A program made the position numbers and the translations under genes. A stretch of 21,593 bases of DNA, from positions 1-21,593 of the IMG/VR virus record IMGVR_UViG_3300031840_000343; one strand, 5' to 3'. Positions 3,075 to 17,060 of the stretch are shown in pieces. The notes under the pieces are model-generated. The model saw only the letters and a list, made by a program, of their open reading frames with translations. It ran no database searches and had not been told where the DNA came from. How positions within the stretch are numbered: the first letter of the stretch is position 1; each line of letters starts with the position of its first letter. The DNA is from a virus.

Positions 3075-3788
3075 ATGAATAGCAATGAATTTAACATAAG
3101 CATACCATCATCTGCAAGAGATATTAAGCTTAGACAATGGCAGTCTTACATTGACGTACACAACAAAAATAAAGATGCTGAAGATACAGACTTCTTAGAG
3201 AAGAAGGTAATAAGCATATTTTGTGATATTAGCATGTCTAATGTAAATAAGATACCATTTAGTATCTATACAGATATATTAGAACACTTAACAACTATCT
3301 TAAACGATAAACCAGATTTAGTACATAGGTTTAAGTTAGAAGGTACAGATGGTGTTGTAGTAGAGTTTGGATTGATACCTAACTTTGATAAAATGAGTTA
3401 TGGAGAGTTTGTAGACTTAGAGAAATACTTGTTTGATGAGAAGAACTTACATAGAGCAATGGCAGTCTTATACAGACCATTAAAATCAAGTCACAAAGAT
3501 AACTATCTCATACATGATTACGAAGGTACAGAGTTCTACGCAGAACTGATGAAAGACACTCCTTTAGACGTTGCATTAGCTTCGAGGGTTTTTTTTTATC
3601 GTTTAGCGACAAAATTAGGGAACTATACAATGGCTTATACACTCAAAGAGTTACAACACAAGGAAGCGAACAAGACAGACAAGCTTTCGGAAAAAAATGG
3701 GGAGACTATCAAGCAATATTTACACTCGCTGGAGAAGATGTCAGAAGAATTGGAGAGGTTACAAGACTTCCAGTACATCAATGTTTAA
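3075..3788 (+). CDS. Tail assembly chaperone, short (0-frame) product
   Basis: A 237-residue protein. Residues about 60-175 look like the tail-chaperone-type family common in Bacteroidetes phages, with an IPNFDKMSYGEFVDLEKYL stretch, an AMAVLYRP motif and PLDVALASRVFFY. By analogy with lambda gpG and gpGT, chaperones of this kind bind the tape measure during tail assembly and are made as short and frameshifted long forms. After the T run at 3589-3597 the 0 frame adds 63 more residues, charged and coiled-coil-like. The gene lies first in the tail operon. Its TAA overlaps an ATG in the -1 frame (TAATG at 3786-3790). Confidence 0.7.
   Translation: MNSNEFNISIPSSARDIKLRQWQSYIDVHNKNKDAEDTDFLEKKVISIFCDISMSNVNKIPFSIYTDILEHLTTILNDKPDLVHRFKLEGTDGVVVEFGLIPNFDKMSYGEFVDLEKYLFDEKNLHRAMAVLYRPLKSSHKDNYLIHDYEGTEFYAELMKDTPLDVALASRVFFYRLATKLGNYTMAYTLKELQHKEANKTDKLSEKNGETIKQYLHSLEKMSEELERLQDFQYINV
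3590..3596 (+). other. Slippery site for -1 frameshift (T run)
   Basis: Nine consecutive T residues at 3589-3597 give the heptamer T TTT TTT in phase with the 0-frame codons (X XXY YYZ form). A -1 slip lets both phenylalanine tRNAs re-pair perfectly. RNA-polymerase slippage on the same run is an alternative mechanism. No clear downstream pseudoknot was seen by eye. Confidence 0.65.
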
Positions 3789-3856
3789 TGTATTTAGAGT
3801 ATATTAAAGAGAAATCAGAAATAGAAGAAAGAATTATTAAATCAAAAATGAAATGA
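3596..3856 (+). CDS. -1 frame extension of the tail assembly chaperone
   Basis: The -1 frame is open from 3518 to the TGA at 3854-3856 and contains no ATG until 3788, so most of it can only be made by frameshifting from the upstream gene. A slip at 3590-3596 yields a 260-residue product: residues 1-174 of the short form plus 86 new residues. The extension contains FGKKWGDYQAIFTLAGEDV and EVTRLPVHQCLMYLEYIKEK, which resemble the second part of Bacteroidetes phage chaperones. Its stop overlaps the ATG of the next gene (ATGA at 3853-3856). The 22-codon ATG-initiated part (3788-3856) might also be translated by coupling. Confidence 0.65.
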   Translation, partial: LSFSDKIRELYNGLYTQRVTTQGSEQDRQAFGKKWGDYQAIFTLAGEDVRRIGEVTRLPVHQCLMYLEYIKEKSEIEERIIKSKMK

Positions 3857-4311
3857 CACACGTTTACGACATATTAGACACTATAAAGGATGAGCTACTA
3901 GCTAGTCCTTCAGTAAATACTGTTACTTATGGAGATATTACAGATGTAGACTTAGATAAGACTACTATGTTTCCACTATCACACATATTAATGGATAGTG
4001 TTACATACGGAGAAAGAGTGGTTTCTTTTAACATACAGATACTTTGTGCAGATATTGTAGATTATAATAAAGATAAATCAGACTTTGAGTTGTTTTATGG
4101 TAATGATAATCTACATGATGTACTTAATACACAGTTTGAAGTCATTAACAGACTTATCTCTAAATTAATGAGAGGAGATTTATTTGAGGAGAATTACCAA
4201 GTTACAACACAGCCAACAGCAACACCATTCAAAGAAAGATTTAGCAATGAATTAGCTGGTTGGTCTGTAGACATGACTATTGATATACCTAACGGGATAA
4301 GTATTTGCTAG
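3853..4311 (+). CDS. Putative tail terminator or completion protein
   Basis: A 152-residue protein resembling a small structural protein conserved in flavobacterial phages. It begins with a helix (VYDILDTIKDELLASP), then strands around VNTVTYGDITDVDLDKTT and FPLSHILMD, and a later RFSNELAGWSVDMTIDIPN. The alpha/beta pattern and a position just before a gp10-like gene fit a tail terminator, which caps the tail tube and joins it to the head. Its start overlaps the frameshift product stop, and its stop abuts the next ATG. The role is inferred from fold-like pattern and neighbours. Confidence 0.5.
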   Translation: MTHVYDILDTIKDELLASPSVNTVTYGDITDVDLDKTTMFPLSHILMDSVTYGERVVSFNIQILCADIVDYNKDKSDFELFYGNDNLHDVLNTQFEVINRLISKLMRGDLFEENYQVTTQPTATPFKERFSNELAGWSVDMTIDIPNGISIC

Positions 4312-4833
4312 ATGGATAAAACTAATCTTAAAAAAGCATTAGAAGACTTAGTAGAAGAATATAAAGCTAAACTTAAAGCACAAGCTAAGATTGATAAGAC
4401 TTACGCTACTGGAAAGTTTGCTAACTCTTTTAAGAGTAAAGTAGTTGAAGATGGTTTTGAAATAACTTCTGATGTAGCATATGCTGGAGCTGTTGATGAT
4501 GGTTTAGATGGTGGTAAAAATAAAATAGCTAATATAAGTGCTATAGCCAAGTGGGCAGAAGCTAAGAATATTAGACCAATATCTAAATTAAGTGGTGGTT
4601 ATAAATTTAGAAGGATGAATACTGATAGTAGAAGTGCTTTTAGGTCTATGGTTTCTGCTATAGCTCGGTCAATCCATAAAAAAGGTACTATAAAGAGATT
4701 TAAGTATAAAGGTAGTGAGATATTCAGTAGAGTATATAACTCCATGCAAGAAAAGATAGGAAGTGAGCTTTCAGAAGCTTTCGCTATAGACTTAAAGAAT
4801 GATATAGCTAAAATAATAAATAAAACACAATAA
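4312..4833 (+). CDS. HK97 gp10-like tail completion protein
   Basis: A 173-residue protein with the typical order of HK97 gp10-like neck proteins: N-terminal charged helix (LEDLVEEYKAKLKAQA), a TGKFANSFKSKV segment, then a strand ITSDVAYAGAVDDGLDGG where a residue-rich loop follows the Y-A-x-x-V-x-x-G pattern, and a helical C-terminus. Such proteins help join head and tail. The ATG follows the previous stop with no gap. The family call is from pattern, not from search. Confidence 0.6.
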   Translation: MDKTNLKKALEDLVEEYKAKLKAQAKIDKTYATGKFANSFKSKVVEDGFEITSDVAYAGAVDDGLDGGKNKIANISAIAKWAEAKNIRPISKLSGGYKFRRMNTDSRSAFRSMVSAIARSIHKKGTIKRFKYKGSEIFSRVYNSMQEKIGSELSEAFAIDLKNDIAKIINKTQ

Positions 4834-4834
4834 A

Positions 4835-6001
4835 ATGGCACTAATATTAACAAGAAGTCCTTACTTAATATCCAATCAAGGATTTACAAATGCTGTAATG
4901 TCGTTAAGTATTCAAGATTATACCTTTGAAACTTATCCAACTACCTTAAAAACATACACTCTAACATTTAGAACTCAAGAATACATTGATATATCTCCTT
5001 TAGTTAGAGATTACTTAATAGATAGAGATATAGTAAGCGTAAGCGTTGTTATAAACGGAACTCCTAGTGGTTACTATACAGCATCACATTACGCTGTAGA
5101 TGGTTATGGTTACTATGAAGAAGGTATGAATAAAGACTTTTCTAGTGAATTATACAATAATGGACTTTATGCTGGTAGTAATAACGTTATACAGAGATAC
5201 ACAAACAAAGCTTTAGATATACCATTGCTAAACCCTATGGTTGGTAGTGCAGGATATGATATTAGTGAGAATGCTACAAACACTCTAATAAACTTTTACA
5301 AAGGAAGTGAGTTATTAAGAACAAAGACTACTAATTTTGGTTATTTCTCAACACCTTTGACTCAACTTACTACAGCAGATAGAATACAGTATATTACAGA
5401 AAGTACTTACGATACTTTTGAAGAGAGAGTAGAAGAAGATGGTGGTACATACGAGACTAATTCTTGTATAGAAGCTTTCTTAAAAGAGTTTCCAGACGAG
5501 TACGCTTATTATCCAGCTACTAGAGTGGAGATAGTGCCACAGTCTGACTACAATAGAGCATACAACCTTACAGTACAAAGGATAGACGAGTGTAAATACA
5601 CACCACATAGAATTAGGTTTACTAATAAATTAGGTGTTAAGGAAAACTTATGGTTCTTTAAGAAGTCTAGTGAATCTATAGCTACAGAAAAGGAATCGTT
5701 TAGAACAAATACTTTTAATGATTACGTTAGTGGAGATTTAAGTAAGCACGTTTACAGAAACTACAACTTAAATGGAAAAGAGTCTATGACTTTAAATACT
5801 GGTTTTGTGCCAGAGTCATTTAAGGAAAACTTTAAACAGCTTATGTTATCTGAAAAGGTATGGCTAGATAAAGATGGTGTAGACTTACCTATAAATATAA
5901 AGAACTCTGAATTGCAATTAAAGAAGTCTGTTAATGACAAGCTAATCAACTACACTATAGACATAGAATTTTCATACGATAAGATAAACAACATATTTTA
6001 A
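4835..6001 (+). CDS. Putative tail-tip (distal-tail-like) protein
   Basis: A 388-residue beta-rich protein of a type conserved in Bacteroidetes phages. The C-terminal half contains HRIRFTNKLGVKENLWFFKK, LNTGFVPESFKENFKQLMLSE and VNDKLINYTIDIEFSYDKIN, which fits a distal tail or baseplate component that connects the tail tube with receptor-binding parts. It is followed at once (TAATG overlap) by the large tail-tip protein, so the two are probably assembled together. No enzymatic motif was seen. The exact role is inferred from position. Confidence 0.55.
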   Translation: MALILTRSPYLISNQGFTNAVMSLSIQDYTFETYPTTLKTYTLTFRTQEYIDISPLVRDYLIDRDIVSVSVVINGTPSGYYTASHYAVDGYGYYEEGMNKDFSSELYNNGLYAGSNNVIQRYTNKALDIPLLNPMVGSAGYDISENATNTLINFYKGSELLRTKTTNFGYFSTPLTQLTTADRIQYITESTYDTFEERVEEDGGTYETNSCIEAFLKEFPDEYAYYPATRVEIVPQSDYNRAYNLTVQRIDECKYTPHRIRFTNKLGVKENLWFFKKSSESIATEKESFRTNTFNDYVSGDLSKHVYRNYNLNGKESMTLNTGFVPESFKENFKQLMLSEKVWLDKDGVDLPINIKNSELQLKKSVNDKLINYTIDIEFSYDKINNIF

Positions 6002-8772
6002 TGAAGCTAGTAACACAATTATACATAGATACATCTGGAGACCCTACTGGAACACCTACTTATGAAAGAGTTGAGTTATTTGACTTTGAAAGTATAGAGT
6101 TAACATCTACTATACAAGAGGTAAGAGATATAGGAAGCGTTTTTACGGACTTTTCTCAGTCTTTTAATGTACCAGCATCACAAAACAATAATAAGGTCTT
6201 AAAACACTATTATCAGACTAATTTAAGCGAGTCTTTTGATGCTAGGATAAAGCAGAGGGGATTAATAACTATAAATGGTATCACTTTTAAAGAAGGTTAT
6301 ATTAGATTGTCAGAAGCTACATTAAAGAATGGTAAGCCATCTACATACAGTTTAACTTTCTTTGGTTCATTAGTAACTTTAAAACAAGCTCTAGGAGATG
6401 ATGAGTTGCAAGACCTTATTGGTTTAGATGATTATAATCACGAGTATGATATAGATACTGTTTATGATGGTTTTATAGATGGCTTAGGGTTGGAAGGACA
6501 GAATATGGTTAAATCCTCTAACAGAGACATTATTTATCCATCTATATCGGCTAGTAATAGATGGTATTATAGCACTGATATAGCTGACTTAGGTGAACAA
6601 GATTTTCAAGGAGATAGAAAGTCTGTTAATATTTGGACTAACGGAACTACTACTTTAGAATACGGAATAAATTATGAGCAACTAAAACCAGCTATAAAAG
6701 TAAAGAATATTATATCAGCTATAGAGAAATATTACGAAGATAAAGGTATTGTCTTTAGTGATGACTTTTTTAATAACGTAGAGTTTAATCAACTTTATTT
6801 ATTACTACATAATTTTAAAGGAACTATATTAAATTCTAGTGAAGCAGAGAAGTCTTTAGATTATGTCGTGGGTACTTCAGAGTCTGATTCTGTTTTTGAA
6901 ACAGCTTCTGGTTATACTGAATTAAGACCTATTGAGGTTAGTTATGGAAATACTCCTTGGGATGGTCTAAATCAAGTTTCTTATGGTTTACAATTAAATG
7001 TAGAAGTAGTATCTCCATCTTCTGGAGCTGAATACACTATAGAACTTTTAGAAGGGGAGACCTTGATAGATAGTAAAGATATAACTGGAGATGGATTTAT
7101 GTACACATTATTAGAATATCCAAATGATGGTGGTCTGGAAGAATTAGAGAGTAAGACTTATGATAATTTAAGATATAGAGTTAAGTCTAGAGGTAATTTA
7201 GTTTCGTTTAATATAACTAGTCTGAGGATAGTTAGAGATTCTGAGTATGGTGTAGGTACAGCAAATCCAGTTTACGAAAGTGTAATTAGTGAATATGACT
7301 TTACTGGAGGTCAGCAAGATATGATTTCTCAAATAAGTATTACAAGGTTTATGCCTAAAATTAAAACATACGATTTCCTTAAAGGACTTTTTAATATGTT
7401 TAATTTAACAGCTTATGTTGATAATGGAGTTATAGTAGTTAAGACTTTAGATAAATTCTATAATGATTCTGGAGACCCTATTGATATATCAGACCAGATA
7501 GATACAAAAGATATAGGTATTAAAAGAATGGACTTGTATAGTGATATTAAGTTTGAATTTAGTACACCTAAAACATTTGGTATTATAAATCAAAACGAAG
7601 TAAATCAAGATGATTTTGGAGATTTAGAATATGAAGGACCTAGAGATAGTTTAATCTTTGATGGAACTAAATATAATATAAAATTACCATTTGAGAAGTT
7701 GTTTTTTGATAGACTTAGCGATGAGAATACTGGAAACTTAACTGCATTTGGAAATGGTTGGTTAGTAGATAAAGACCAAAACGAAACTATTACAGCACCA
7801 GTATTATTTTTTAATAAAAATACATCTGTAGATTTGGAAGAAAAAATTGGTTTTAAGAATAAATCATTTGCAATAACATCATACAACAGACCTAGTAATT
7901 CTTCTAATAATGAGTTATCTACAATACATTTTGGAGAAGAGCAAGATGAATATACTGGAAATCGTATAACAAATAGTTTGTTTCAATTACACTACAGTAA
8001 GTACATAGCTAATATCTTCAATCAAAACTCTAGGATATACACTATAAAAGCTTTTCTGAATTTAAATACAATATTCTCATACGAGATGAATGACAATTTT
8101 GTTATAAATAATAAAGAGTTTTTTATCAATAGCATTAGAACAGACTTATCTACTGGTGCTACAGACTTAGAGTTAATACCAGCTTACGAAACAGAAGAAG
8201 TTTTACCACCAGACACAGAAGCTCCTACAGTACCTACTAATTTAACATTTGTTAGTGCTACAGACAGTAAGATACAGTTTAGTTGGACTGAGAGTACAGA
8301 TAATATAGCTGTTACTGGATATGAAGTATGGGTAGATGGTTCTTTTGAGATTAGTATAGGTATTGGTTCTTTATACACATTAGGTGGTTTAGACCCTACT
8401 ACTGATTATGATATTCAGTTATTAGCTTTTGATGCACAGAATAATAAATCTGCATTGTGTACTGCTGTAGAAATGACTACTACTGCTGTTCCAGATAATA
8501 TTCCACCAACAACTCCTACTAACCTAAGACAAGGTATAGTTACATCAAGTAGTATAGGTCTTGCTTGGGATGCTTCTACAGATAATGTAGGTGTTTCTCT
8601 TTATAAAGTTTATGTAGATGGAGTGTTTAATCAAGACGTTAATCATCCAAGCACAAATGCTAATGTTACTGGATTATCTAGTCAAACATCTTATAGTTTT
8701 TACGTAAAGGCTGTAGATGCTAATTTAAACGAATCGCCAATATCAAACATTGTTAATATAAGTACATTATGA
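6001..8772 (+). CDS. Tail-tip protein with two fibronectin type III domains
   Basis: A 923-residue protein. Residues 1-135 hold a conserved strand-rich head (VFTDFSQSFNVPASQNN), followed by a long baseplate-hub-like body. Residues about 737-828 and 830-923 are tandem fibronectin type III domains: each opens with a proline-rich linker of the APTVPTNL / PPTTPTNL type, has an STDN-x-x-V motif, a VDG turn and a Y-x-x-x-x-A-x-D end strand. Fn3 domains on phage tails are thought to bind carbohydrate or extend the tip. Its TGA overlaps the next ATG (ATGA). A tail hub or fibre role is inferred from size, Fn3 content and place before the tape measure. Confidence 0.65.
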   Translation: MKLVTQLYIDTSGDPTGTPTYERVELFDFESIELTSTIQEVRDIGSVFTDFSQSFNVPASQNNNKVLKHYYQTNLSESFDARIKQRGLITINGITFKEGYIRLSEATLKNGKPSTYSLTFFGSLVTLKQALGDDELQDLIGLDDYNHEYDIDTVYDGFIDGLGLEGQNMVKSSNRDIIYPSISASNRWYYSTDIADLGEQDFQGDRKSVNIWTNGTTTLEYGINYEQLKPAIKVKNIISAIEKYYEDKGIVFSDDFFNNVEFNQLYLLLHNFKGTILNSSEAEKSLDYVVGTSESDSVFETASGYTELRPIEVSYGNTPWDGLNQVSYGLQLNVEVVSPSSGAEYTIELLEGETLIDSKDITGDGFMYTLLEYPNDGGLEELESKTYDNLRYRVKSRGNLVSFNITSLRIVRDSEYGVGTANPVYESVISEYDFTGGQQDMISQISITRFMPKIKTYDFLKGLFNMFNLTAYVDNGVIVVKTLDKFYNDSGDPIDISDQIDTKDIGIKRMDLYSDIKFEFSTPKTFGIINQNEVNQDDFGDLEYEGPRDSLIFDGTKYNIKLPFEKLFFDRLSDENTGNLTAFGNGWLVDKDQNETITAPVLFFNKNTSVDLEEKIGFKNKSFAITSYNRPSNSSNNELSTIHFGEEQDEYTGNRITNSLFQLHYSKYIANIFNQNSRIYTIKAFLNLNTIFSYEMNDNFVINNKEFFINSIRTDLSTGATDLELIPAYETEEVLPPDTEAPTVPTNLTFVSATDSKIQFSWTESTDNIAVTGYEVWVDGSFEISIGIGSLYTLGGLDPTTDYDIQLLAFDAQNNKSALCTAVEMTTTAVPDNIPPTTPTNLRQGIVTSSSIGLAWDASTDNVGVSLYKVYVDGVFNQDVNHPSTNANVTGLSSQTSYSFYVKAVDANLNESPISNIVNISTL

Positions 8773-8921
8773 TAAGAGAAACATTAGAATTACTAAAAAG
8801 TAGAGACTGGTTAATAGACGATAAAGAAATTAACATAGCTAAAGGCATGTATGAAATGCCTTCTACATTCACAGAATTAAAAATAAACAGGAAAAGAAAA
8901 AAACTAACAAATGGCAGATAG
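8769..8921 (+). CDS. Small conserved-position protein (50 aa)
   Basis: A 50-residue, charged ORF (MIRETLELLKSRDWLIDD at the start, RKRKK near the end). Its ATG overlaps the stop of the Fn3 protein (ATGA) and its stop lies inside the start of the tape measure gene, overlapping it by 11 bases in another frame. The double overlap supports translation. No family recognised; its place between hub and tape measure suggests a small tail assembly factor. Confidence 0.55.
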   Translation: MIRETLELLKSRDWLIDDKEINIAKGMYEMPSTFTELKINRKRKKLTNGR

Positions 8922-10989
8922 TAAAGAACAAATATTATTAGAATTAAAGATAAAGACTGATTTAGCTAGTGCTGCTTTAGAAAAAACTAATGTAGCTATA
9001 AAGAAAACTATACAATCTTTTAAGAAATTAAAAGAAGGAAGTTTAGATTATCAACAAGCTCAAGCAAAGTTAGCTAGTCTTCAAGCGAATTATGCTAAAC
9101 AATCATTAAATTACGCTAAGGCATTACAGAATCAGATAGGTGCTGGGAAGACTGGTTTAAATGGTGTTACTGGTGCTACAGGAGGTGCAACTGCTGCAAC
9201 ACTTGAATTAGGTAGGGTTATATCTGATATGCCTTATGGTATTCGTGGTGTTGCGAATAACTTATCTCAATTTGCTTCTCAGTTTAGCTTTATGTCAAAT
9301 AAAGTAGATGAAACTACTGGTAAGGTTGTTGGATTTAATGGTGCTATAAAAGGTTTAGGTAAAGCTATAAAAGCTAACGCAATTTTGCTAGCTATTCAAG
9401 CAATTATATCTGCTTTTGATTATTTTTCTGGAGGTGCTAAGAAAGCAGAAAAATCTACAGAGGATTTAACTAAATCTCTTAGAGAACAAGTTGAAGTATT
9501 AAATAGTTATAAAACAGCACTAGATGAATCTAATCTGTCTTTAGATGAAAGAGAAGGTTTAATAAAAGCTGTAACAATAAAAAGCAAAGAGTTTGCGAAA
9601 ATAATAGAGGAATCTAAAGGTGGTCTAACATCAGAAACAGAAGCTTTAAATAAGTTTGTAGCTAAAAAAGATAAGGAATTAGAGGTAAAAACTAAAATAG
9701 CTAATTTAGACAAAGCAAATGCTGTAATAAGAGAAGAAGAAATAAAGGGATTAAATAAAGTAAATGAGGAAATATCTCTATACGAAAAGATTGTATCGAA
9801 TACAGGTCTTGGTAATGAAGCAATGTTACTTAGGTTAGAACAATTAAGAAAAGTAAAGACAGCGTATGAAGACCAAAAAATAATACTATCACAGTTAAAT
9901 AAGTTAATAGAAGATAATCCAGAAAACAGCAATAAATTTAAAGAAGGTACTGTTGCTTGGTATAAGAAACAAATATCGGATAAAGAAAAGATAAGAGATA
10001 AGACAGCAGATAATACAAAAGAATACAAGAATCAAACAAAAGAAGTTACAAGACTTAGGAATGAATTAAAAAAACTTATAGGGGATGCAGAGGATAGAGA
10101 GAAAGCTAAAGGACTTGATAAGTTAAAACCTGTAGGTATAGGAGAAACTAAAAAGAAGATGCAAGAAATATTTAGTATTGTATCTGAAGGCTTAGGTGTA
10201 GACTTAAAAGACTCTCCTTTATCCATTGCTCCAGAATTAAATTTTGATTTATCAGAAGGCACTAAAAAAGGTATTGATGATTACAATAAAATAGTTCGTA
10301 AAACCATAACTGAAAAGTTTAATGCTGAAGATATAGCTGACAGTTTAGACGCTTTTAAAGAAGCTTTGTCAACTATAAGTGATTTTGCAGACGCTCAATT
10401 TGAGAGAGAATTAACTACAGAACAAAATAAAACAACAGCATTAAATCAAGAATTAAATAACAGACTTCTTAATGAGAATCTAGCTAAAGATGAAAGAATA
10501 AAAATACAGAATGAAATAGCACAAAATGATGAGAAGTTAAGAGTAAAGCAAAACGCTATAAAAAAGAAGCAATTTAACACACAGAAAGCATTTAATTTAT
10601 CTATGGCTTTAGTAGATACAGCTAGTTCAGCTTTAAAGGCTTATGGTTCTCAATTAATTATAGGAGACCCTACATCTATAATTAGAGCTAAAGTAGCTGC
10701 TGGTATAGCTACTGCTGTAGGTTTAGCTCAAGTAGCTACAATAGCCTCTCAAAAGTTTCAAGCAGACTCTGCGTCAACACCTATTAGAACATCTAGTGGT
10801 GGTGGAGCTGGTGGTGGTGTAGGAGATAGAAGTTTTGACTTCAATCTAGTAGGTGCTACACAAGGTAATCAAGTGTTAGATGCTATACAAGGTCAGTTTA
10901 ATAAACCAGTACAAGCTTATGTAGTATCAAGAGACATGACAAACCAACAACAATTAGATGCAAACATTAAAAACCAAGCATCATTTTAA
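8911..10989 (+). CDS. Tail tape measure protein
   Basis: A 692-residue protein that sets tail length and fills the tail tube before DNA ejection. It has long alanine- and lysine-rich helices throughout (coiled-coil-like at about 230-390 and 480-565), a hydrophobic segment at about 153-172 (ANAILLAIQAIISAFDYF) and a second at about 593-617. The end contains a Gly-rich linker (GGGAGGGVGDRS) and a closing motif near VQAYVVSRDMTNQQQ that I recognise from Bacteroidetes tape measures. Using a common rule of about 1.5 angstrom per residue, the tail would be near 100 nm. It is the last gene of the tail operon. Confidence 0.85.
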   Translation: MADSKEQILLELKIKTDLASAALEKTNVAIKKTIQSFKKLKEGSLDYQQAQAKLASLQANYAKQSLNYAKALQNQIGAGKTGLNGVTGATGGATAATLELGRVISDMPYGIRGVANNLSQFASQFSFMSNKVDETTGKVVGFNGAIKGLGKAIKANAILLAIQAIISAFDYFSGGAKKAEKSTEDLTKSLREQVEVLNSYKTALDESNLSLDEREGLIKAVTIKSKEFAKIIEESKGGLTSETEALNKFVAKKDKELEVKTKIANLDKANAVIREEEIKGLNKVNEEISLYEKIVSNTGLGNEAMLLRLEQLRKVKTAYEDQKIILSQLNKLIEDNPENSNKFKEGTVAWYKKQISDKEKIRDKTADNTKEYKNQTKEVTRLRNELKKLIGDAEDREKAKGLDKLKPVGIGETKKKMQEIFSIVSEGLGVDLKDSPLSIAPELNFDLSEGTKKGIDDYNKIVRKTITEKFNAEDIADSLDAFKEALSTISDFADAQFERELTTEQNKTTALNQELNNRLLNENLAKDERIKIQNEIAQNDEKLRVKQNAIKKKQFNTQKAFNLSMALVDTASSALKAYGSQLIIGDPTSIIRAKVAAGIATAVGLAQVATIASQKFQADSASTPIRTSSGGGAGGGVGDRSFDFNLVGATQGNQVLDAIQGQFNKPVQAYVVSRDMTNQQQLDANIKNQASF

Positions 10990-10990
10990 A

Positions 10991-11015
10991 ACAAAATAGG
11001 AATAATTAGTTATCA
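10991..11015 (+). promoter_or_regulatory. ACA-N14-AGTTATC element before the head operon
   Basis: ACA (10991-10993) lies 14 bases before AGTTATCA (11008-11015), 18 bases before the protease ATG. The upstream half, AAAACAAAATA (10988-10998), recurs exactly with the same offset at 14858-14868. It sits in the only 40-base gap after the tail genes, so a promoter is likely. Confidence 0.55.
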
Positions 11016-11033
11016 AATTATAACACAATAGGT

Positions 11034-11924
11034 ATGAAAGATTTAGATGTAATAGAATTATTTATAGATGAAACTAAGGAAGATGATGGTATAGAAGCTA
11101 TCTCTTTAGTAGAGTTTCCAGCAATAGAGGAGAACTTTGTTGCATTAAGTAAACATAAAGTAGAGTTTAAAACAGTAGATAGTGAAAAGAGAATTATCGT
11201 TGGTTTAGCTTTAGTTCCAGATAAGCTTATTTATAGACGTAGAGGAGATTATGAGTATAATATAGTATTCTCTAAGGAAACTGTAAGAAAAGCGTCTGAG
11301 CTATACTTAAAACGTCTTAAACTAAACAATGCTACATTAGAACATGATGACCAAATGACAAGTGGTGTATCTGTAATAGAGTCTTGGATAGTAGAAAATC
11401 CAGAACAAGATAAAACAGCTTTATACAACTTAAATGCAGTAGAGGGTGCTTGGGCAGTAACTATGAAAATAGATAATGATAAAGTATGGGAAGAAGTTAA
11501 AGAAGGAAAGTACTTAGGATTATCTATAGAAGGTATGTTTAGTGATAGCGTAGAAGATGTAGAGGAGATAGAGGCATCTAACGTACTAGAAGAGATAAAG
11601 AGACTATTATCTGAGGAGGAATTAGCTTCTTATAGTGATTATCCACAATCAGCAACAAACAATGCTAAGAGAGCTTTAGAATGGAAGAAAAAGAATGGTA
11701 CTTCTTGTGGGACGTCAGTAGGATGGGCAAGAGCGAATCAATTAGCGAACAGAGAACCACTAAGTCGTTCTACGATAGCAAGAATGGCATCGTTCAAGAG
11801 ACATCAACAAAACAAAGACGTACCTTATTCAGAAGGTTGTGGAGGCATTATGTGGGATGCTTGGGGTGGAAGTGCAGGTGTAAACTGGGCGATAAGCAAG
11901 TTAAAGCAAATAGATAAAGAATAG
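11034..11924 (+). CDS. Prohead protease, XkdF-like, with C-terminal domain
   Basis: A 296-residue protein. Residues about 20-170 resemble XkdF-type phage serine proteases that process the scaffold and capsid: AISLVEFPAI near the start, ATLEHDD with candidate catalytic His104, and LGLSIEGMF with candidate Ser164. Residues 202-293 form a separate domain (SATNNAKRALEWKKKNGTSC, later MASFKRHQQN and GGIMWDAWGG) that I have seen appended to phage head proteins; its role is not known. The position just upstream of scaffold and capsid genes fits. The start follows the 10991 element and a leader much like that of the scaffold gene. Confidence 0.75.
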   Translation: MKDLDVIELFIDETKEDDGIEAISLVEFPAIEENFVALSKHKVEFKTVDSEKRIIVGLALVPDKLIYRRRGDYEYNIVFSKETVRKASELYLKRLKLNNATLEHDDQMTSGVSVIESWIVENPEQDKTALYNLNAVEGAWAVTMKIDNDKVWEEVKEGKYLGLSIEGMFSDSVEDVEEIEASNVLEEIKRLLSEEELASYSDYPQSATNNAKRALEWKKKNGTSCGTSVGWARANQLANREPLSRSTIARMASFKRHQQNKDVPYSEGCGGIMWDAWGGSAGVNWAISKLKQIDKE

Positions 11925-11925
11925 T

Positions 11926-12555
11926 ATGTCTACAATAAAAAACACATCTTATAGAGTTAAGGCTGATGTAAACTCAGATGAAGAAAGATTATCATACAAT
12001 ATAGAGGAAGGTGCTTTTGTTACTACCTCATCTGGTATATGGTCTGTTCATAATGGAGAGTGGGTAAAGATACACCCTAAAGGTGGAACTGGTAGTGGTC
12101 TTGGATGGGCAAGATACGATGATACTTTTTGGACTTCTAGTAATAAACTACCATTACTACAAGATACAACTACTGTTATAAATAACAATGGAGGTAATAT
12201 CGTACTAAGTGATAATTCTATAAACTATTACGATAAAAACTCTTATAAAATTTTAGCAGATGCTGAGAACGAACTTTATATGGCTACTGTTGTATTTAAG
12301 TATTCTTCCCCTAATGCTAATCAAACATTTATAAGACTACAGTTGCAAGGTGGTAACGGAACTCCTTATGAAAGATTAGGTTCTGATATATCTCTACCTA
12401 AAGGCAATGATGTTACTCACGAATACCATCAAGTATTTCAATATTATGTAGATTCTGATTTTGTATCTAATGGTTCTCAGTGGGTTGCAACATCTCATGG
12501 AGGAGGTTCTCAGATATGGGATATAATATTCTTTATAAGTAAAATACAAAACTAA
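11926..12555 (+). CDS. Putative head decoration or fibre protein
   Basis: A 209-residue beta-rich protein. Residues 1-50 (SYRVKADVNSDEERLSYN, GIWSVHNGEWVKIHP) resemble a phage virion-attachment region, and the remainder looks like a jelly-roll sandwich with many Gly, Ser and aromatic residues. It starts one base after the protease stop, so it is translated with it. Its place between protease and scaffold suggests a capsid decoration or head fibre, but this is inference from context. Confidence 0.45.
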   Translation: MSTIKNTSYRVKADVNSDEERLSYNIEEGAFVTTSSGIWSVHNGEWVKIHPKGGTGSGLGWARYDDTFWTSSNKLPLLQDTTTVINNNGGNIVLSDNSINYYDKNSYKILADAENELYMATVVFKYSSPNANQTFIRLQLQGGNGTPYERLGSDISLPKGNDVTHEYHQVFQYYVDSDFVSNGSQWVATSHGGGSQIWDIIFFISKIQN

Positions 12556-12556
12556 T

Positions 12557-12697
12557 ATGAAAGCAGTATACTGTAAATGTAGAAACACATATTCTATAAA
12601 GTGTTCTAAAGATAAGAAGAATAAGAATTGTAAAGCACCTTACTATTGGGAACAAGGTATAGGTAGTATTTATAAAGAAGATACTGAAGATAATTAA
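12557..12697 (+). CDS. Small Cys-containing basic protein (46 aa)
   Basis: A 46-residue ORF that starts one base after the previous stop. It has four cysteines (C6, C8, C16, C25: CKCRNTYSIKC and NKNCKAPYYW) among many lysines, which could bind one zinc. It then turns acidic (KEDTEDN). No family recognised. The tight spacing in the head operon supports it as a real gene; the function is unknown. Confidence 0.5.
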   Translation: MKAVYCKCRNTYSIKCSKDKKNKNCKAPYYWEQGIGSIYKEDTEDN

Positions 12698-12709
12698 TTG
12701 AAAAATACG

Positions 12710-12734
12710 ACAGTAAAATAGTAAATAGTTATAT
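12710..12734 (+). promoter_or_regulatory. ACA-N14-AGTTAT element before scaffold and capsid
   Basis: ACA (12710-12712), 14 bases, then AGTTATAT (12727-12734), with the scaffold ATG 18 bases later, the same distance as before the protease gene. It fills a 55-base gap and could drive high expression of scaffold and capsid. Confidence 0.5.
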
Positions 12735-12752
12735 TAATATAAACCAATAAGT

Positions 12753-13220
12753 ATGAAAGCAACAGAAATCCTTGATAACGTTAAAGAGCTTTTAAACCTA
12801 TCTAAAGAAGAGGTTAAAGTTGAAGACGTTGTAATTGAAGATTCAGTAGAATTATCTACAGAAGAGGTTAAGGAGGAAGTAGAAGAGACTGTACTTGCTG
12901 AAGAAGAGGTTGTAGAAGCACCTAAAGAAGAAATCGTTGAAGACGAAGTTTCTATGGAGTATGCTACATCTGAAGATTTATCAGCATTAAAAGCAGAGAT
13001 ACTTTCTATGATTAACGCATTAATCGAAGATAAACCAATGGGAGAAGTAAAAGAAGTTCCAGAGGAGTTATCAAAACAAGAAGAAGTTGAATTATCTGAG
13101 GAGGTAGAAGAAGTAGTACATTCTCCAGAGAATTCAATCGAAGTAAAGAAAAATTTATTATCAAAACCAAACAAATCTATGTCAACTCAAGAAAGAGTGA
13201 ATAGAATGTTATTTAACTAA
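12753..13220 (+). CDS. Capsid scaffolding protein (putative)
   Basis: A 155-residue, extremely acidic protein with dense Glu-Glu-Val repeats (for example EEVEETVLAEEEVVEA), a central helix (SEDLSALKAEILSMINALIE) and a basic, capsid-contact-like C-terminus (NPK-type, ending TQERVNRMLFN). Size, charge, predicted helicity and position directly before the major capsid gene all fit a scaffold, which guides shell assembly and is then cleaved or lost. No direct sequence family is claimed. Confidence 0.65.
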   Translation: MKATEILDNVKELLNLSKEEVKVEDVVIEDSVELSTEEVKEEVEETVLAEEEVVEAPKEEIVEDEVSMEYATSEDLSALKAEILSMINALIEDKPMGEVKEVPEELSKQEEVELSEEVEEVVHSPENSIEVKKNLLSKPNKSMSTQERVNRMLFN

Positions 13221-13231
13221 AATTAAGAAAA

Positions 13232-14182
13232 ATGGCTACTACTACAAGCATTACTACAACTTACGCAGGACAGGCAGCAGGAGAATACATCTCAGCAGCT
13301 TTATTAGCTGGAAACACTATCGCAAATGGTGGATTAACAGTAAGACCTAACGTAAAATTCAAAGAAGTTGTTAAAAGATTGGAATTAGATGGTATCGTAA
13401 AAGATGGTACTTGTGATTTCGCTGACACTTCAACATTAACATTAACTGAGAGAATCTTAGAGCCTAAAGAGCTACAAGTAAACTTAGAGTTATGTAAAAA
13501 AGATTTCCGTTCTGATTGGGAAGCAATCCAAATGGGATATTCTGCATTTGATAACTTACCTCCATCATTCCAAGCTTATTTAATTTCTTATGTAGCTGGA
13601 AAAGTTGCACAAAAGAATGAGCAAAACATTTGGGGTGGAGATGATGCAAACGAAGGAGAATTTGATGGATTCGCTTCTTTATTAGCTGTTGATGCTGATT
13701 TACCAGCAGGACAAGAAATTGCTGGAACTACTATTACTGCTGCTAACGTAATTGATGAATTAGGAAAAGTTGCTGATGCAATTCCTTCTGCATTATACGG
13801 AAGAGAAGACTTATACATCTATGTATCTCAAAATGTATTTAGAGCATACAAAAGAAGTTTAGGTGGATTCCAATCTGGAGGACAAGGAGCAAATGGTGTT
13901 AACGGACAAGGTAACAACCAAGACATTAATATCTTATACTTTGATGGTGTAAAAATATTTATGGCTAATGGTTTAGCTGATAACACAATGGTTGCTACTA
14001 CTAAAGATAATTTACACTTCGGTACGGGACTTTTATCAGACCACCAAGAAGTAAAAATCTTAGATATGGCTGACCTAGATGGTTCGCAAAATGTAAGAGT
14101 TATTATGAGATTTACTGCTGGTGTTCAGTATGGTGTAATCGAAGATATTGTAACTTACGGAATTACAAATTCAGCTAACTAA
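13232..14182 (+). CDS. Major capsid protein, HK97-fold type
   Basis: A 316-residue protein that starts 11 bases after the scaffold gene. It fits an HK97-fold shell protein of Bacteroidetes phages: an N-arm (TTTYAGQAAGEYISAALLAG), a strand-rich P-domain, DLYIYVSQNVFRAYKRSL, a Gly/Asn-rich loop (QSGGQGANGVNGQGNN), DGVKIFMANGL, and a final strand VIMRFTAGVQYGVIEDIV. Codons ending in C (ATC, TTC, AAC) look more frequent than in neighbours, as for highly expressed genes. A strong terminator follows. Confidence 0.85.
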   Translation: MATTTSITTTYAGQAAGEYISAALLAGNTIANGGLTVRPNVKFKEVVKRLELDGIVKDGTCDFADTSTLTLTERILEPKELQVNLELCKKDFRSDWEAIQMGYSAFDNLPPSFQAYLISYVAGKVAQKNEQNIWGGDDANEGEFDGFASLLAVDADLPAGQEIAGTTITAANVIDELGKVADAIPSALYGREDLYIYVSQNVFRAYKRSLGGFQSGGQGANGVNGQGNNQDINILYFDGVKIFMANGLADNTMVATTKDNLHFGTGLLSDHQEVKILDMADLDGSQNVRVIMRFTAGVQYGVIEDIVTYGITNSAN

Positions 14183-14204
14183 GAATTAGCACTTAAATTA
14201 ATAT

Positions 14205-14238
14205 AAAAAGGGTGGGTGGTTTCCATCTGCCCTTTTTT
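14205..14238 (+). terminator. Intrinsic terminator after the capsid gene
   Basis: A stem of about 15-18 pairs, including several G-T wobbles: AAAAAGGG (14205-14212) and on to 14219, a TTT loop (14220-14222), then CCATCTGCCC (14223-14232) and a run of six T (14233-14238). Strong rho-independent terminator; partial read-through would feed the tail tube gene, which has no element of its own. Confidence 0.9.
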
Positions 14239-14262
14239 AATAACTAATAAAAATATAATAAT

Positions 14263-14796
14263 ATGGCTTGTGATTTTATTACAACAGGTAGAGAAGAACC
14301 TTGTAAAGATTCAGTAGGTGGTTTAAAAGCTGTTTACTTTGTAGACTTTGGGGATTTTGATGTAGCTAATGTTGTTTACGATGCTGATGGCACTACAATT
14401 ACAGATATAGGTTCTGCAGATGTACCAGCATACAAATACGAAATAAGAGGTGCTTCTACTTATACGGAGAACATTCAATCTAGTAGAGAGAATGGAACAA
14501 CTGCTTTTGAGCAAGTGTTAGAGTTGACACTTAAAAAATTAACTAAAGAAGACCATAAAGCAATTAAACTATTGTCTTTTGGTAGACCACATATTTTAAT
14601 AGAAGATAATAACGGAAACGTATTCTTATCTGGATTAGAATTTGGTTGTGATGTTACTGGTGGTACAGTTGTTACTGGTGGTGCAATGGCTGATATGAGT
14701 GGATACACTTTAAGTTTTACTGGAATGGAGAAAGCTCCAGCTAACTTTATAAGTGATGGAGATATTGGTGGTGCTGGATTTTTAGTTACTCCATAG
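14263..14796 (+). CDS. Major tail tube protein (putative)
   Basis: A 177-residue beta-rich protein. It begins MACDFITTGREEPCKDSVGG, has LEFGCDVTGGTVVTGGAMADMSGY and ends FTGMEKAPANFISD. Size, the GGTVxTGG strand and the place between the capsid and a structural gene fit a siphovirus tail tube subunit. Terminators on both sides suggest tightly set expression, as expected for an abundant virion protein. No other function is suggested by the sequence. Confidence 0.65.
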   Translation: MACDFITTGREEPCKDSVGGLKAVYFVDFGDFDVANVVYDADGTTITDIGSADVPAYKYEIRGASTYTENIQSSRENGTTAFEQVLELTLKKLTKEDHKAIKLLSFGRPHILIEDNNGNVFLSGLEFGCDVTGGTVVTGGAMADMSGYTLSFTGMEKAPANFISDGDIGGAGFLVTP

Positions 14797-14823
14797 TTTT
14801 TAATTGATATTCATAATTAATTG

Positions 14824-14849
14824 ACCCTGCCTTTTTGGTGGGGTTTTTT
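14824..14849 (+). terminator. Intrinsic terminator after the tail tube gene
   Basis: ACCCTGCC (14824-14831), TTTTT loop, GGTGGGGT (14837-14844), then T to 14849. Two of eight pairs are G-T wobbles. It lies 28 bases after the tail tube stop. It overlaps the TTG that could start the next ORF, which is one reason to place the next start at 14890. Confidence 0.85.
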
Positions 14850-14860
14850 ATTAAATAAAA

Positions 14861-14885
14861 ACAAAATAATATTTTTTAGTTATCA
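14861..14885 (+). promoter_or_regulatory. ACA-N14-AGTTATC element before portal module
   Basis: ACA (14861-14863), 14 bases, then AGTTATCA (14878-14885), with ATG at 14890. AAAACAAAATA at 14858-14868 matches 10988-10998 exactly. It sits directly after a terminator, where a new promoter is needed, which supports a promoter role. Confidence 0.55.
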
Positions 14886-14889
14886 TAGT

Positions 14890-15312
14890 ATGATAGTTTT
14901 ATTACCAAACACAACATTTCAGACAATAAGTATTATGCCTAGAGAGAATAATACTGACGGAACTATATCTATAAATCTAAGAAGAGATGGAGATAGTCTT
15001 ACTGAAGTTATAACAGACATAAAGTCTAGTGTTACAGATAACTTTGTAGAGCTAGGTTTTTCTTCTACTATTTTAGAGGAAGATTCTACTTATTACTTAG
15101 AAATAACTAAGAGTGGTAGTTTATGGTATAGGGATAAAGTTTATAGCACTTTCCAACAATACGAAAAAGACTTTATTTGGAGTGGATATGATGCTACATT
15201 TTCTGAAGCTATGGCTTCTTTTGGTGGGGATTTAGATGAGAAACATAAAATAGGTAATGGAAAACTGTATAAGACTTACGATTCAGTAGACGATAATACA
15301 TACATAATATAA
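14890..15312 (+). CDS. Conserved phage structural protein (140 aa)
   Basis: A 140-residue beta-rich protein of a kind I associate with Bacteroidetes phages (MIVLLPNTTFQTISIMPREN at the start; later SGSLWYRDKVYSTFQQYEKD). ATG 14890 was chosen because the longer frame from TTG 14821 would run through the terminator and needs a weak start. Its stop overlaps the portal start (TAATG). The exact role is unknown; a tail or neck component is plausible from its neighbours. Confidence 0.5.
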   Translation: MIVLLPNTTFQTISIMPRENNTDGTISINLRRDGDSLTEVITDIKSSVTDNFVELGFSSTILEEDSTYYLEITKSGSLWYRDKVYSTFQQYEKDFIWSGYDATFSEAMASFGGDLDEKHKIGNGKLYKTYDSVDDNTYII

Positions 15313-17060
15313 TGAGTAAGAAAAAAGAATATAAGGATAGTATTAGAATTGTTAATATGTCCTCTTACGAGATACCAGAGATAAAAGAAGTTCACAATAA
15401 AGAGTGGGTTACTTTTGGTATGAATAATGATTATTTTGATAAACTAATAGAAAGATACTTAGATAGTCCTACTAATGGTAGGTGTGTTAATGGTATTGTT
15501 GATATGGTGTATGGTAGAGGATTAGAGTCTACTAATTCTGATTTATTTCCAGAGGACTATATTAAAATGAAAAAGTTACTTAGACCTAGAGAAGTTAAAA
15601 GACTTGTTAATGATTACAAGTTATTAGGTCAAGGTGCTATGCAATTAACATACAACAAAGCTAAGACAAAAATACTAAAAATATCTCACTTTCCTATGGA
15701 GACGTTAAGAGCAGAGAAAGCTACTAACGGAAAGATAAAAGCATACTACTACCATCCAAGTTGGAAAGATTGTAAGAACTCAGATAATCCTAAAAGAATA
15801 CCTACATTTGGCAATGGTACTAAATCTCAAGTAAACGAGCTTTATGTATTTAAACCTTATAGAAGTGGTTTTTATTATTACGCTACAGTAGATTATCAAG
15901 CTTGTTTACAATATGCACAATTAGAGTCAGAGGTATCTAACTATCATATATCAAATATAGAAAACGGATTACAGCCTAGCTTATTTGTAAACTTTAATAA
16001 TGGTATTCCAAATGAGGAAACACAAACTATTATAGAGAGTAAGATAAATGATAAGTTTAGTGGGAGTTCTAATAGTGGGAAGGCAATTATAGCATTCAAC
16101 GAATCAGCAGAGACTAAAGCTGATATAGAAGCAATACATTTACCAGATGCACACGCACAATATCAATTCTTATCTGATGAAGCTAGAGAAAAGATAATGT
16201 TAGGACACGGAATTGTATCTCCAATATTATTAGGTATAAAAGACAATACTGGTTTTGGTAACAATGCAGAAGAATTACGTACAGCATCAGTACTAATGGA
16301 TAACGTTATTATTAGACCATTACAAGATGGTATTATATACGGATTAACAGAATTATTAGAGTTTAACAAGATATACCAAGACCTATACTTTGTAACATTA
16401 CAACCTATTGAATTTACAGAGTTAGACAACATATCAACTAAAATTAGAAGAGAAGAAGAAACTGGAGAGAAATTATCAGCAGAATCTAGTGATGACTTTT
16501 CAGATGATGAAGGAGATGATATGATAGACCAATTAGAAGGCTTAGGGGAGGTTTTAAGCGATGATTGGGAACTTATCCATAGTGAAGTATATGAAGAGGA
16601 AAAAGAGTCTGTTAAAATGGCTGAAATCAAGTATTCTGATAAATCATCAAAAGAAGACAATGATGTATATAAAGTTAGGTATGCTTATATGCCAGTAAGA
16701 AAGTCTCCTAATAGTAGAAACTTCTGTAAAAAAATGGAGGTACTTACTGATAGAAAGATAGTGTTTAGAAAGGAAGATATTAATATGATGTCTTTTAGAG
16801 GGGTTAATAAAGATTTAGGTCATAATAAACGTAATTATAGTTTACTAAAATATAAAGGAGGAAAAAATTGTCATCATTATTGGGAATTACAAGTTTATAA
16901 GAAGTCTAGTGGTAGAAAGGTAGACTCTGATAATGCTTATGAGAAAGGGTTAAAAGAACCATCTAATCCGTCAGAAATGGGAGAGAGAATGATAGATAGA
17001 CCAGACAATGGTGCTTACCCAAATATATTAAGTAGAATAAGAAAATTAATAGGACAATAA
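15312..17060 (+). CDS. Portal protein with Cys/His-rich C-terminal extension
   Basis: A 582-residue protein. Residues 1-390 resemble portal proteins: WVTFGMNNDYFDKLIERYLDSPTNG, LGQGAMQLTYNKA, IVSPILLGIKDNTGFGNNAEEL and a final helix into LQPIEFTELDNI. Twelve portal copies form the DNA channel at one capsid vertex. Residues about 391-420 are a very acidic linker (DDFSDDEGDDMID). Residues about 450-582 form an extra domain with SRNFCKKMEV (Cys472), FRKEDINMMSFRGVN and KGGKNCHHYW (Cys520, His521, His522), a possible metal site; similar tails occur on phage head proteins. The start overlaps the previous stop and the stop overlaps the adaptor start. Confidence 0.75.
   Translation: MSKKKEYKDSIRIVNMSSYEIPEIKEVHNKEWVTFGMNNDYFDKLIERYLDSPTNGRCVNGIVDMVYGRGLESTNSDLFPEDYIKMKKLLRPREVKRLVNDYKLLGQGAMQLTYNKAKTKILKISHFPMETLRAEKATNGKIKAYYYHPSWKDCKNSDNPKRIPTFGNGTKSQVNELYVFKPYRSGFYYYATVDYQACLQYAQLESEVSNYHISNIENGLQPSLFVNFNNGIPNEETQTIIESKINDKFSGSSNSGKAIIAFNESAETKADIEAIHLPDAHAQYQFLSDEAREKIMLGHGIVSPILLGIKDNTGFGNNAEELRTASVLMDNVIIRPLQDGIIYGLTELLEFNKIYQDLYFVTLQPIEFTELDNISTKIRREEETGEKLSAESSDDFSDDEGDDMIDQLEGLGEVLSDDWELIHSEVYEEEKESVKMAEIKYSDKSSKEDNDVYKVRYAYMPVRKSPNSRNFCKKMEVLTDRKIVFRKEDINMMSFRGVNKDLGHNKRNYSLLKYKGGKNCHHYWELQVYKKSSGRKVDSDNAYEKGLKEPSNPSEMGERMIDRPDNGAYPNILSRIRKLIGQ

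Follow-up and report, generated by a model that had tools for sequence, protein, structure and literature searches.

A gene in the stretch of viral DNA analyzed here (21,593 nt of the IMG/VR record IMGVR_UViG_3300031840_000343; hereafter, the window) is predicted to give two proteins that share a 174-residue N-terminal domain (N) and separate by a −1 change of frame at a run of nine T, and the pair most likely acts like gpG and gpGT of phage lambda. Normal decoding would give N with a 0-frame tail (N+Z, 237 aa), and a programmed −1 frame change at the T run would give N with another C-terminal domain (N+E, 260 aa). The slip could be a −1 step of the ribosome or the addition of one U by RNA polymerase, and the peptide would be identical either way. 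Under this proposal, N+Z molecules would bind in large numbers to the tape measure protein, and the scarcer N+E molecules would use an additional domain to recruit the tail tube protein. We infer the expression of both forms, their ratio, and their chaperone role, and comparison among relatives shows a conserved slip site, a conserved frame relation, and selection on both frames.

The features of the locus are collected in table 1. The initial annotation had given the T run, its in-phase heptamer, the end of the 0 frame, and the open −1 frame with coordinates that proved exact: the 0-frame ORF occupies 3075-3788 (237 aa), the open −1 frame extends from 3518 to a TGA stop at 3854-3856, and the two frames are jointly open over 3597-3785, that is, 189 nt plus the 0-frame stop, which agrees with the roughly 190 bases of dual coding first reported. 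The slip region reads GTT TTT TTT TAT in the 0 frame, and its T9 is the only run of nine or more T in the whole window. The predicted N+E fusion has the size anticipated in the initial annotation (roughly 260 residues), and the overlap of the −1 stop with the next gene, also noted there, was evident from the TGA at 3854-3856 and the ATG at 3853. A one-base overlap of the E stop with the next-gene ATG was found at 110 of 163 loci. Since this ATG overlaps the stop of E and not that of Z, translation of the next gene may be coupled to the frameshifted form. If the T run lost one base, the protein would immediately terminate at the +1-frame TAG. The stretch from the Z stop to the start of the next gene (3789-3856 in the window, and its counterparts in relatives) was conspicuously poor in RNA structure: the mean MFE of 60-nt segments fell to −1.3, compared with about −8 elsewhere. 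The gene order across 3075-17060 is unusual, with tail-type genes and a tape-measure-like ORF preceding a major head protein candidate (13232) and the portal (15312), and a probable tail protein of 923 aa with C-terminal fibronectin type III repeats (phrog_38559) is encoded at 6001-8772; the ORF at 14263-14796 is a candidate for the tail tube gene.

Table 1. Positions in the window of the recoded gene and the adjoining features
Feature	Position (strand)	Remarks
N domain, common to both products	3075..3596 (+)	174 codons; SRVFF (ARVFF-type motif) ends N at the slip site
Slip site, nine T	3589..3597 (+)	In-phase heptamer T TTT TTT at 3590-3596
Z, 0-frame C-terminal tail	3597..3788 (+)	63 codons plus stop 3786-3788; N+Z = 237 aa
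E, −1 frame C-terminal domain	3596..3856 (+)	86 codons plus stop 3854-3856; predicted N+E = 260 aa; conserved core FGKKWGDYQ
+1-frame stop TAG directly 3' of the slip site	3604..3606 (+)	Read from the window sequence
Next gene, 152 aa	3853..4311 (+)	ATG overlaps the E stop (ATGA); phrog_30964, function unknown

The arrangement was kept in IMG/VR relatives, in one Bacteroidetes MAG, and in Nonlabens phage P12024L (28% identity), and the total sampling comprised 247 distinct 270-nt contexts that formed 136 clusters (<90% identical). The run was T9 in 111 and T10 in 25 of the 136 clusters, with no shorter, longer, or out-of-phase run; T10 came with a substituted codon (TTT as codon 1, or TT at the start of codon 4), so that the frames remained in register. 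A search with the window protein recovered 31 IMG/VR loci at 60-70% identity, and the 29 with enough sequence all had T9, a Z of 62-63 codons, and an E of 85-87 codons; in one of these 29, L015, the contig stops inside E, and the other two loci, L030 and L032, are cut just 3' and just 5' of the T run, respectively. A profile search extended the family to 38-48% identity, with E in frame −1 in 82 of 82 scored sequences (80 fetched sequences, P12024L, and the window). As a control for bias, a profile of E only, beginning 12 residues past the slip, recovered 81 loci, some of them extra copies of known contigs and two too short upstream for N to be scored, and all had T9 or T10 and E in frame −1. 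In addition, a profile of the N domain (upstream motifs only) gave 74 distinct sequences, 61 with T9 and 13 with T10, one further locus being cut off 5' of the slip site, and a search from P12024L, in which one of the six search motifs covered the slip codons, gave 63 loci (T9 in 62, T10 in 1). In every relative with sufficient sequence, E lay in the −1 frame relative to N. Two observations that the initial annotation had named as evidence against its reading did not appear among the relatives found: none encoded the extension in frame with N (no in-frame N-E fusion) without a slip site, and none had lost the open −1 frame.

The N domain, conserved in all relatives, corresponds to phrog_32199 and the E of relatives to phrog_38404, both of unknown function. 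The length of Z was 54-84 codons across the family, the exceptions being P12024L and its near-copy L197 (25 codons each) and L198 (16 codons). The overlap, which the initial annotation had called unusual, is indeed long here; the word "unusual" has to be amended, since a long overlap is a conserved trait of the family. The genome scan gave a single MAG match, a Bacteroidetes, and the host of P12024L is recorded as Persicivirga sp. IMCC12024; the virus appears to infect Bacteroidota-type bacteria.

The lack of an ATG before 3788 in the −1 frame, as first reported, held from the slip site on and extended to GTG and TTG. No conserved start codon in the E frame was found among the relatives either, an ATG 5' of the core being present in 4 of 67 representatives, and on this ground an internal start for E was rejected. 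A separate gene with its own start would match the annotation of P12024L_41, which begins as its own gene inside E, but this reading is contradicted by the missing conserved start. Sequencing error, a pseudogene, or phase variation was also considered as the source of the frame change; however, the run length and the frame relation agreed in all 247 distinct contexts, and the T9/T10 differences arose by substitutions of codons that keep the frame. We therefore regard all of these readings as extremely improbable. In the other ORFs of the relatives, runs of T7 or longer were avoided about 5-fold (6 seen vs. about 28 expected) and T9 was absent (0 seen vs. 0.7 expected), with the null recomputed after removal of the inflation caused by the slip ORFs themselves, in contrast to the T9 or T10 at this site in all 136 clusters; this avoidance is not decisive between ribosome and polymerase.

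We then considered the 0-frame tail Z, which might be mere filler, with non-slipping ribosomes running on to a chance stop and selection acting on E only. In a stop test, the E protein was held fixed, synonymous codons were resampled, and the openness of the 0 frame was scored. Given their E proteins, the 0-frame tails of 66 representatives were expected to hold about 225 stops, and none was seen; the 0 frame stayed open to its observed end in a median of 0.5% of the resampling trials. For the window alone, the probability of a 0 frame open this far with E fixed was 0.0075, and when the 0-frame protein was preserved instead, an open −1 frame resulted in 0 of 400 trials. The rate of silent E-frame change per weighted opportunity was determined in 47 disjoint pairs of close relatives. 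First comparisons were confounded by the last E codons, which adjoin the start of the next gene and also change slowly at silent sites, probably because of that start region; this was resolved by splitting on position, with identical sequences removed. The silent rate was 0.0183 in the overlap (codon 16 onward), 0.0420 in the first half of E past the Z stop, and 0.0423 in N. The synonymous comparison in both frames proposed in the initial annotation thus revealed a 2.3-fold lower rate of E-frame synonymous change within the overlap, which recovered right past the Z stop and which supports dual coding. Per-codon counts, reconstructed from the rounded rates, were compared by Fisher tests, with p=5e-7 for the overlap versus the part after it, p=9e-27 for the overlap versus N, and p=0.48 for the part after it versus N. 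Avoidance of stops cannot account for the drop, because only 2.9% of the opportunities for silent E changes would create a stop in Z.

These results indicated, at the level of sequence comparison, that selection is acting on both frames and that the amino acids of Z appear to be under constraint, although constraint on the RNA could give the same drop in silent rate; no conserved nested RNA structure was found. Z is the less constrained product: nonsynonymous changes per codon were 0.081 in Z, 0.045 in E, and 0.031 in N, in pairs that include repeat loci of the same contigs. Its faster evolution than that of E and N, its variable length down to the short tails of P12024L and L198, and the end of Z being modelled without confidence are what filler would lead one to expect. 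Against this stand the missing stops, the rate of E-synonymous changes that alter Z, at less than half that in N, and the recovery of the silent rate directly past the Z stop, and we consider filler very improbable.

The proposal of a tail chaperone made by a −1 frameshift, as in the initial annotation, was upheld in its architecture and in the frame relation kept by relatives; the role itself is without sequence homology, and is likely on the basis of architecture, position, and weak fold matches. No known chaperone sequence family was matched, neither N nor E having a match in Pfam or NCBIfam, and a sequence profile gave no match to PDB chains. The N+Z model of the window had a good N domain and a low-confidence Z end (mean pLDDT 77.7), and the N domain of the relative L212 was modelled at pLDDT 92; in PDB fold searches, neither model had a significant match. 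Besides many viral proteins without a name, the L212 model matched a single protein with the name tail assembly chaperone, A0A8S5V8Z8 (E 0.015, prob 0.99, TM 0.48). With the N+Z model, the HK97 chaperone 2OB9 was a weak, third-ranked match (Z 3.5, 67 residues, rmsd 3.7), and it was absent from the matches listed for the second, better model. The protein encoded two genes downstream had weak tail-completion matches (HK97-gp10-like, T5 p143). A 692-aa ORF at 8911-10989, which matched only phrog_30292 of unknown function, is a candidate tape measure gene, lying 5 kb downstream of the slip gene and not adjoining it. That distance, the position of the P12024L gene after the terminase, and the lack of any significant sequence or PDB fold match to a chaperone would also suit genuine recoding of a protein with a different role in morphogenesis, such as head-tail joining. 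We consider this unlikely, given the G/GT-type architecture, the viral structure match named as a tail assembly chaperone, the third rank of 2OB9 in one search, and the downstream gene with its tail-completion matches.

Frameshifting in tail chaperone genes is a textbook case of programmed recoding. As in lambda gpG/gpGT and its counterparts in long-tailed phages (PMC5009743), one N domain here would serve two products, the predicted long form arises through a −1 shift at slippery sequence near the end of the shared N part, the extension has no start of its own, and the neighborhood is of the phage tail type. In that phage, the tape measure protein is the binding partner of gpG, and the tail tube protein that of the T part of gpGT (PMC5009743). 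The present family differs in that the short form has its own tail of 54-84 residues over the extension core, under selection, whereas in lambda the shift occurs near the 3' end of G; moreover, its slip site is an uninterrupted T9-T10 for which no stimulator was found. Genes 40 and 41 of the Nonlabens phages P12024L and P12024S are the closest in kind, with 28% identity in N, a T9 and then ATCATTTAG at the slip site, and an E in the −1 frame, but the 0-frame tail has only 25 codons and the two are annotated as separate hypothetical genes. P12024L_40 and _41 (L033:5995-6689, JQ823123.1) have the appearance of a single recoded gene whose parts meet at T9 (locus position 6437), the annotated start of gene 41 being an internal ATG in E. 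The HK97-type chaperone cluster of GeneTack is likewise a phage tail chaperone with a tested −1 shift, which reached 6-7% in the reported assay (PMC3711429); the present family, however, has no sequence match to it in the Pfam, NCBIfam, and PDB searches. At homopolymers of nine or more A/T, transcriptional slippage has been described for Thermus dnaX and Shigella mxiE (PMC1088944), which have a run of nine or ten and, in mxiE, an added base that joins two overlapping frames; these are not phage tail genes, and such slippage in the present family is a proposal. Flavobacterium phage 6H gp10 (L379:10048-10927, minus strand; 191 aa, ending ...CFFYSTR) had a weak structure match to N, and a long −1-frame ORF lies in the unannotated gap after it. 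It was rejected as a distant analogue, the match being weak and a shift at T TTT TTC reaching a stop after one codon.

Whether the ribosome or RNA polymerase slips was addressed from the slip site itself. A heptamer of the X XXY YYZ type, T TTT TTT, was in phase in the window and in all relatives, and an uninterrupted homopolymer of about nine or more A/T was equally general (T9-T10 in 136 of 136 clusters); selection against slippage is evident from nine A/T in many bacteria (PMC1088944). At base 7 of the heptamer, a T-to-C change would be silent in both frames in 119 of the 136 clusters (Phe TTT to TTC and Leu TTA/TTG to CTA/CTG) and would leave U_UUU_UUC. The form H_HH.U_UU.Y (Y = U or C) ranks with the most efficient heptamers in Escherichia coli, and insertion sequences provide examples of U_UU.U_UU.C (PMC4066793). 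However, C was observed at base 7 in none of the 119 clusters, while silent sites in N were randomized at this divergence (codon identity was 0.483, and 0.469 was expected), which suggests that the uninterrupted run itself has been selected, as polymerase slippage predicts. No conserved nested RNA structure was found downstream (alifold 0.0 kcal/mol for the representatives other than P12024L), the downstream MFE was comparable to that elsewhere, and within the window's own clade alifold gave a weak structure (−3.5) with almost no covariation term; a stimulatory structure of nested folds was thus not supported. Ribosomal −1 frameshift sites often, though not necessarily, have a stimulator, either an SD-like sequence upstream or a structure downstream. 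A stop in the +1 frame occurred within 3 codons of the run in 132 of 135 clusters, compared with a 20% background. This fits transcriptional slippage, but we did not use it as proof because dual-coded Leu-Gly and Phe-Arg codons already dictate these bases, and the stop may be a by-product of those residues.

In a purely ribosomal −1 frameshift, two Phe-tRNAs would slip on U UUU UUU and the flanking T's would be driven by amino acids only. This reading is quite possible, somewhat short of an even chance: it agrees with the in-phase heptamer in all relatives and with the reviewed tail chaperone cases, which are ribosomal (PMC5009743), and the T's outside the heptamer could follow from the hydrophobic residues encoded there (V/L/I/F on its 5' side, Y/L/W/F on its 3' side, and L/F in the E frame). 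Against it stand the lack of a conserved stimulator, with no nested structure downstream and with upstream codons that vary among relatives, and the base-7 change, which keeps an efficient heptamer and yet is never seen where silent sites in N are saturated. The base-7 argument holds only if UUC and UUU are equivalent to Bacteroidota ribosomes; otherwise, the ribosomal reading stands, and the strict T could reflect ribosomal tuning in Bacteroidota. On the base-7 T and the missing structure, transcriptional slippage, which the initial annotation had raised as an alternative, is at least as likely as ribosomal frameshifting, if only slightly favored. For the slipping machine, we would give RNA polymerase about an even chance and the ribosome somewhat less, and a contribution of both is improbable. 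We tentatively propose, at a little below even odds for the proposal as a whole, that this Bacteroidota-type phage family sets the ratio of two tail chaperone forms by polymerase slippage at T9-T10 and not by ribosomal frameshifting, that the short form has its own selected tail in the other frame of the extension, and that transcripts with one U fewer would give the bare N domain.

Taken together, the frameshifted tail chaperone is a known kind of gene, and what is new is the pair of alternative C-termini with dual coding and the maintenance of the slip site as T9-T10, a combination for which open-access literature searches found no paper. The results suggest that PHROGs 32199 and 38404, like P12024L_40 and _41, together make up one recoded gene. 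This widespread phage family, so far assigned no function, shows the recoding architecture of tail chaperones with two differences, a dual-coded tail of the short form's own and a slip site apparently selected as an uninterrupted T run, and it offers a natural system for a direct comparison of ribosomal and transcriptional slippage.
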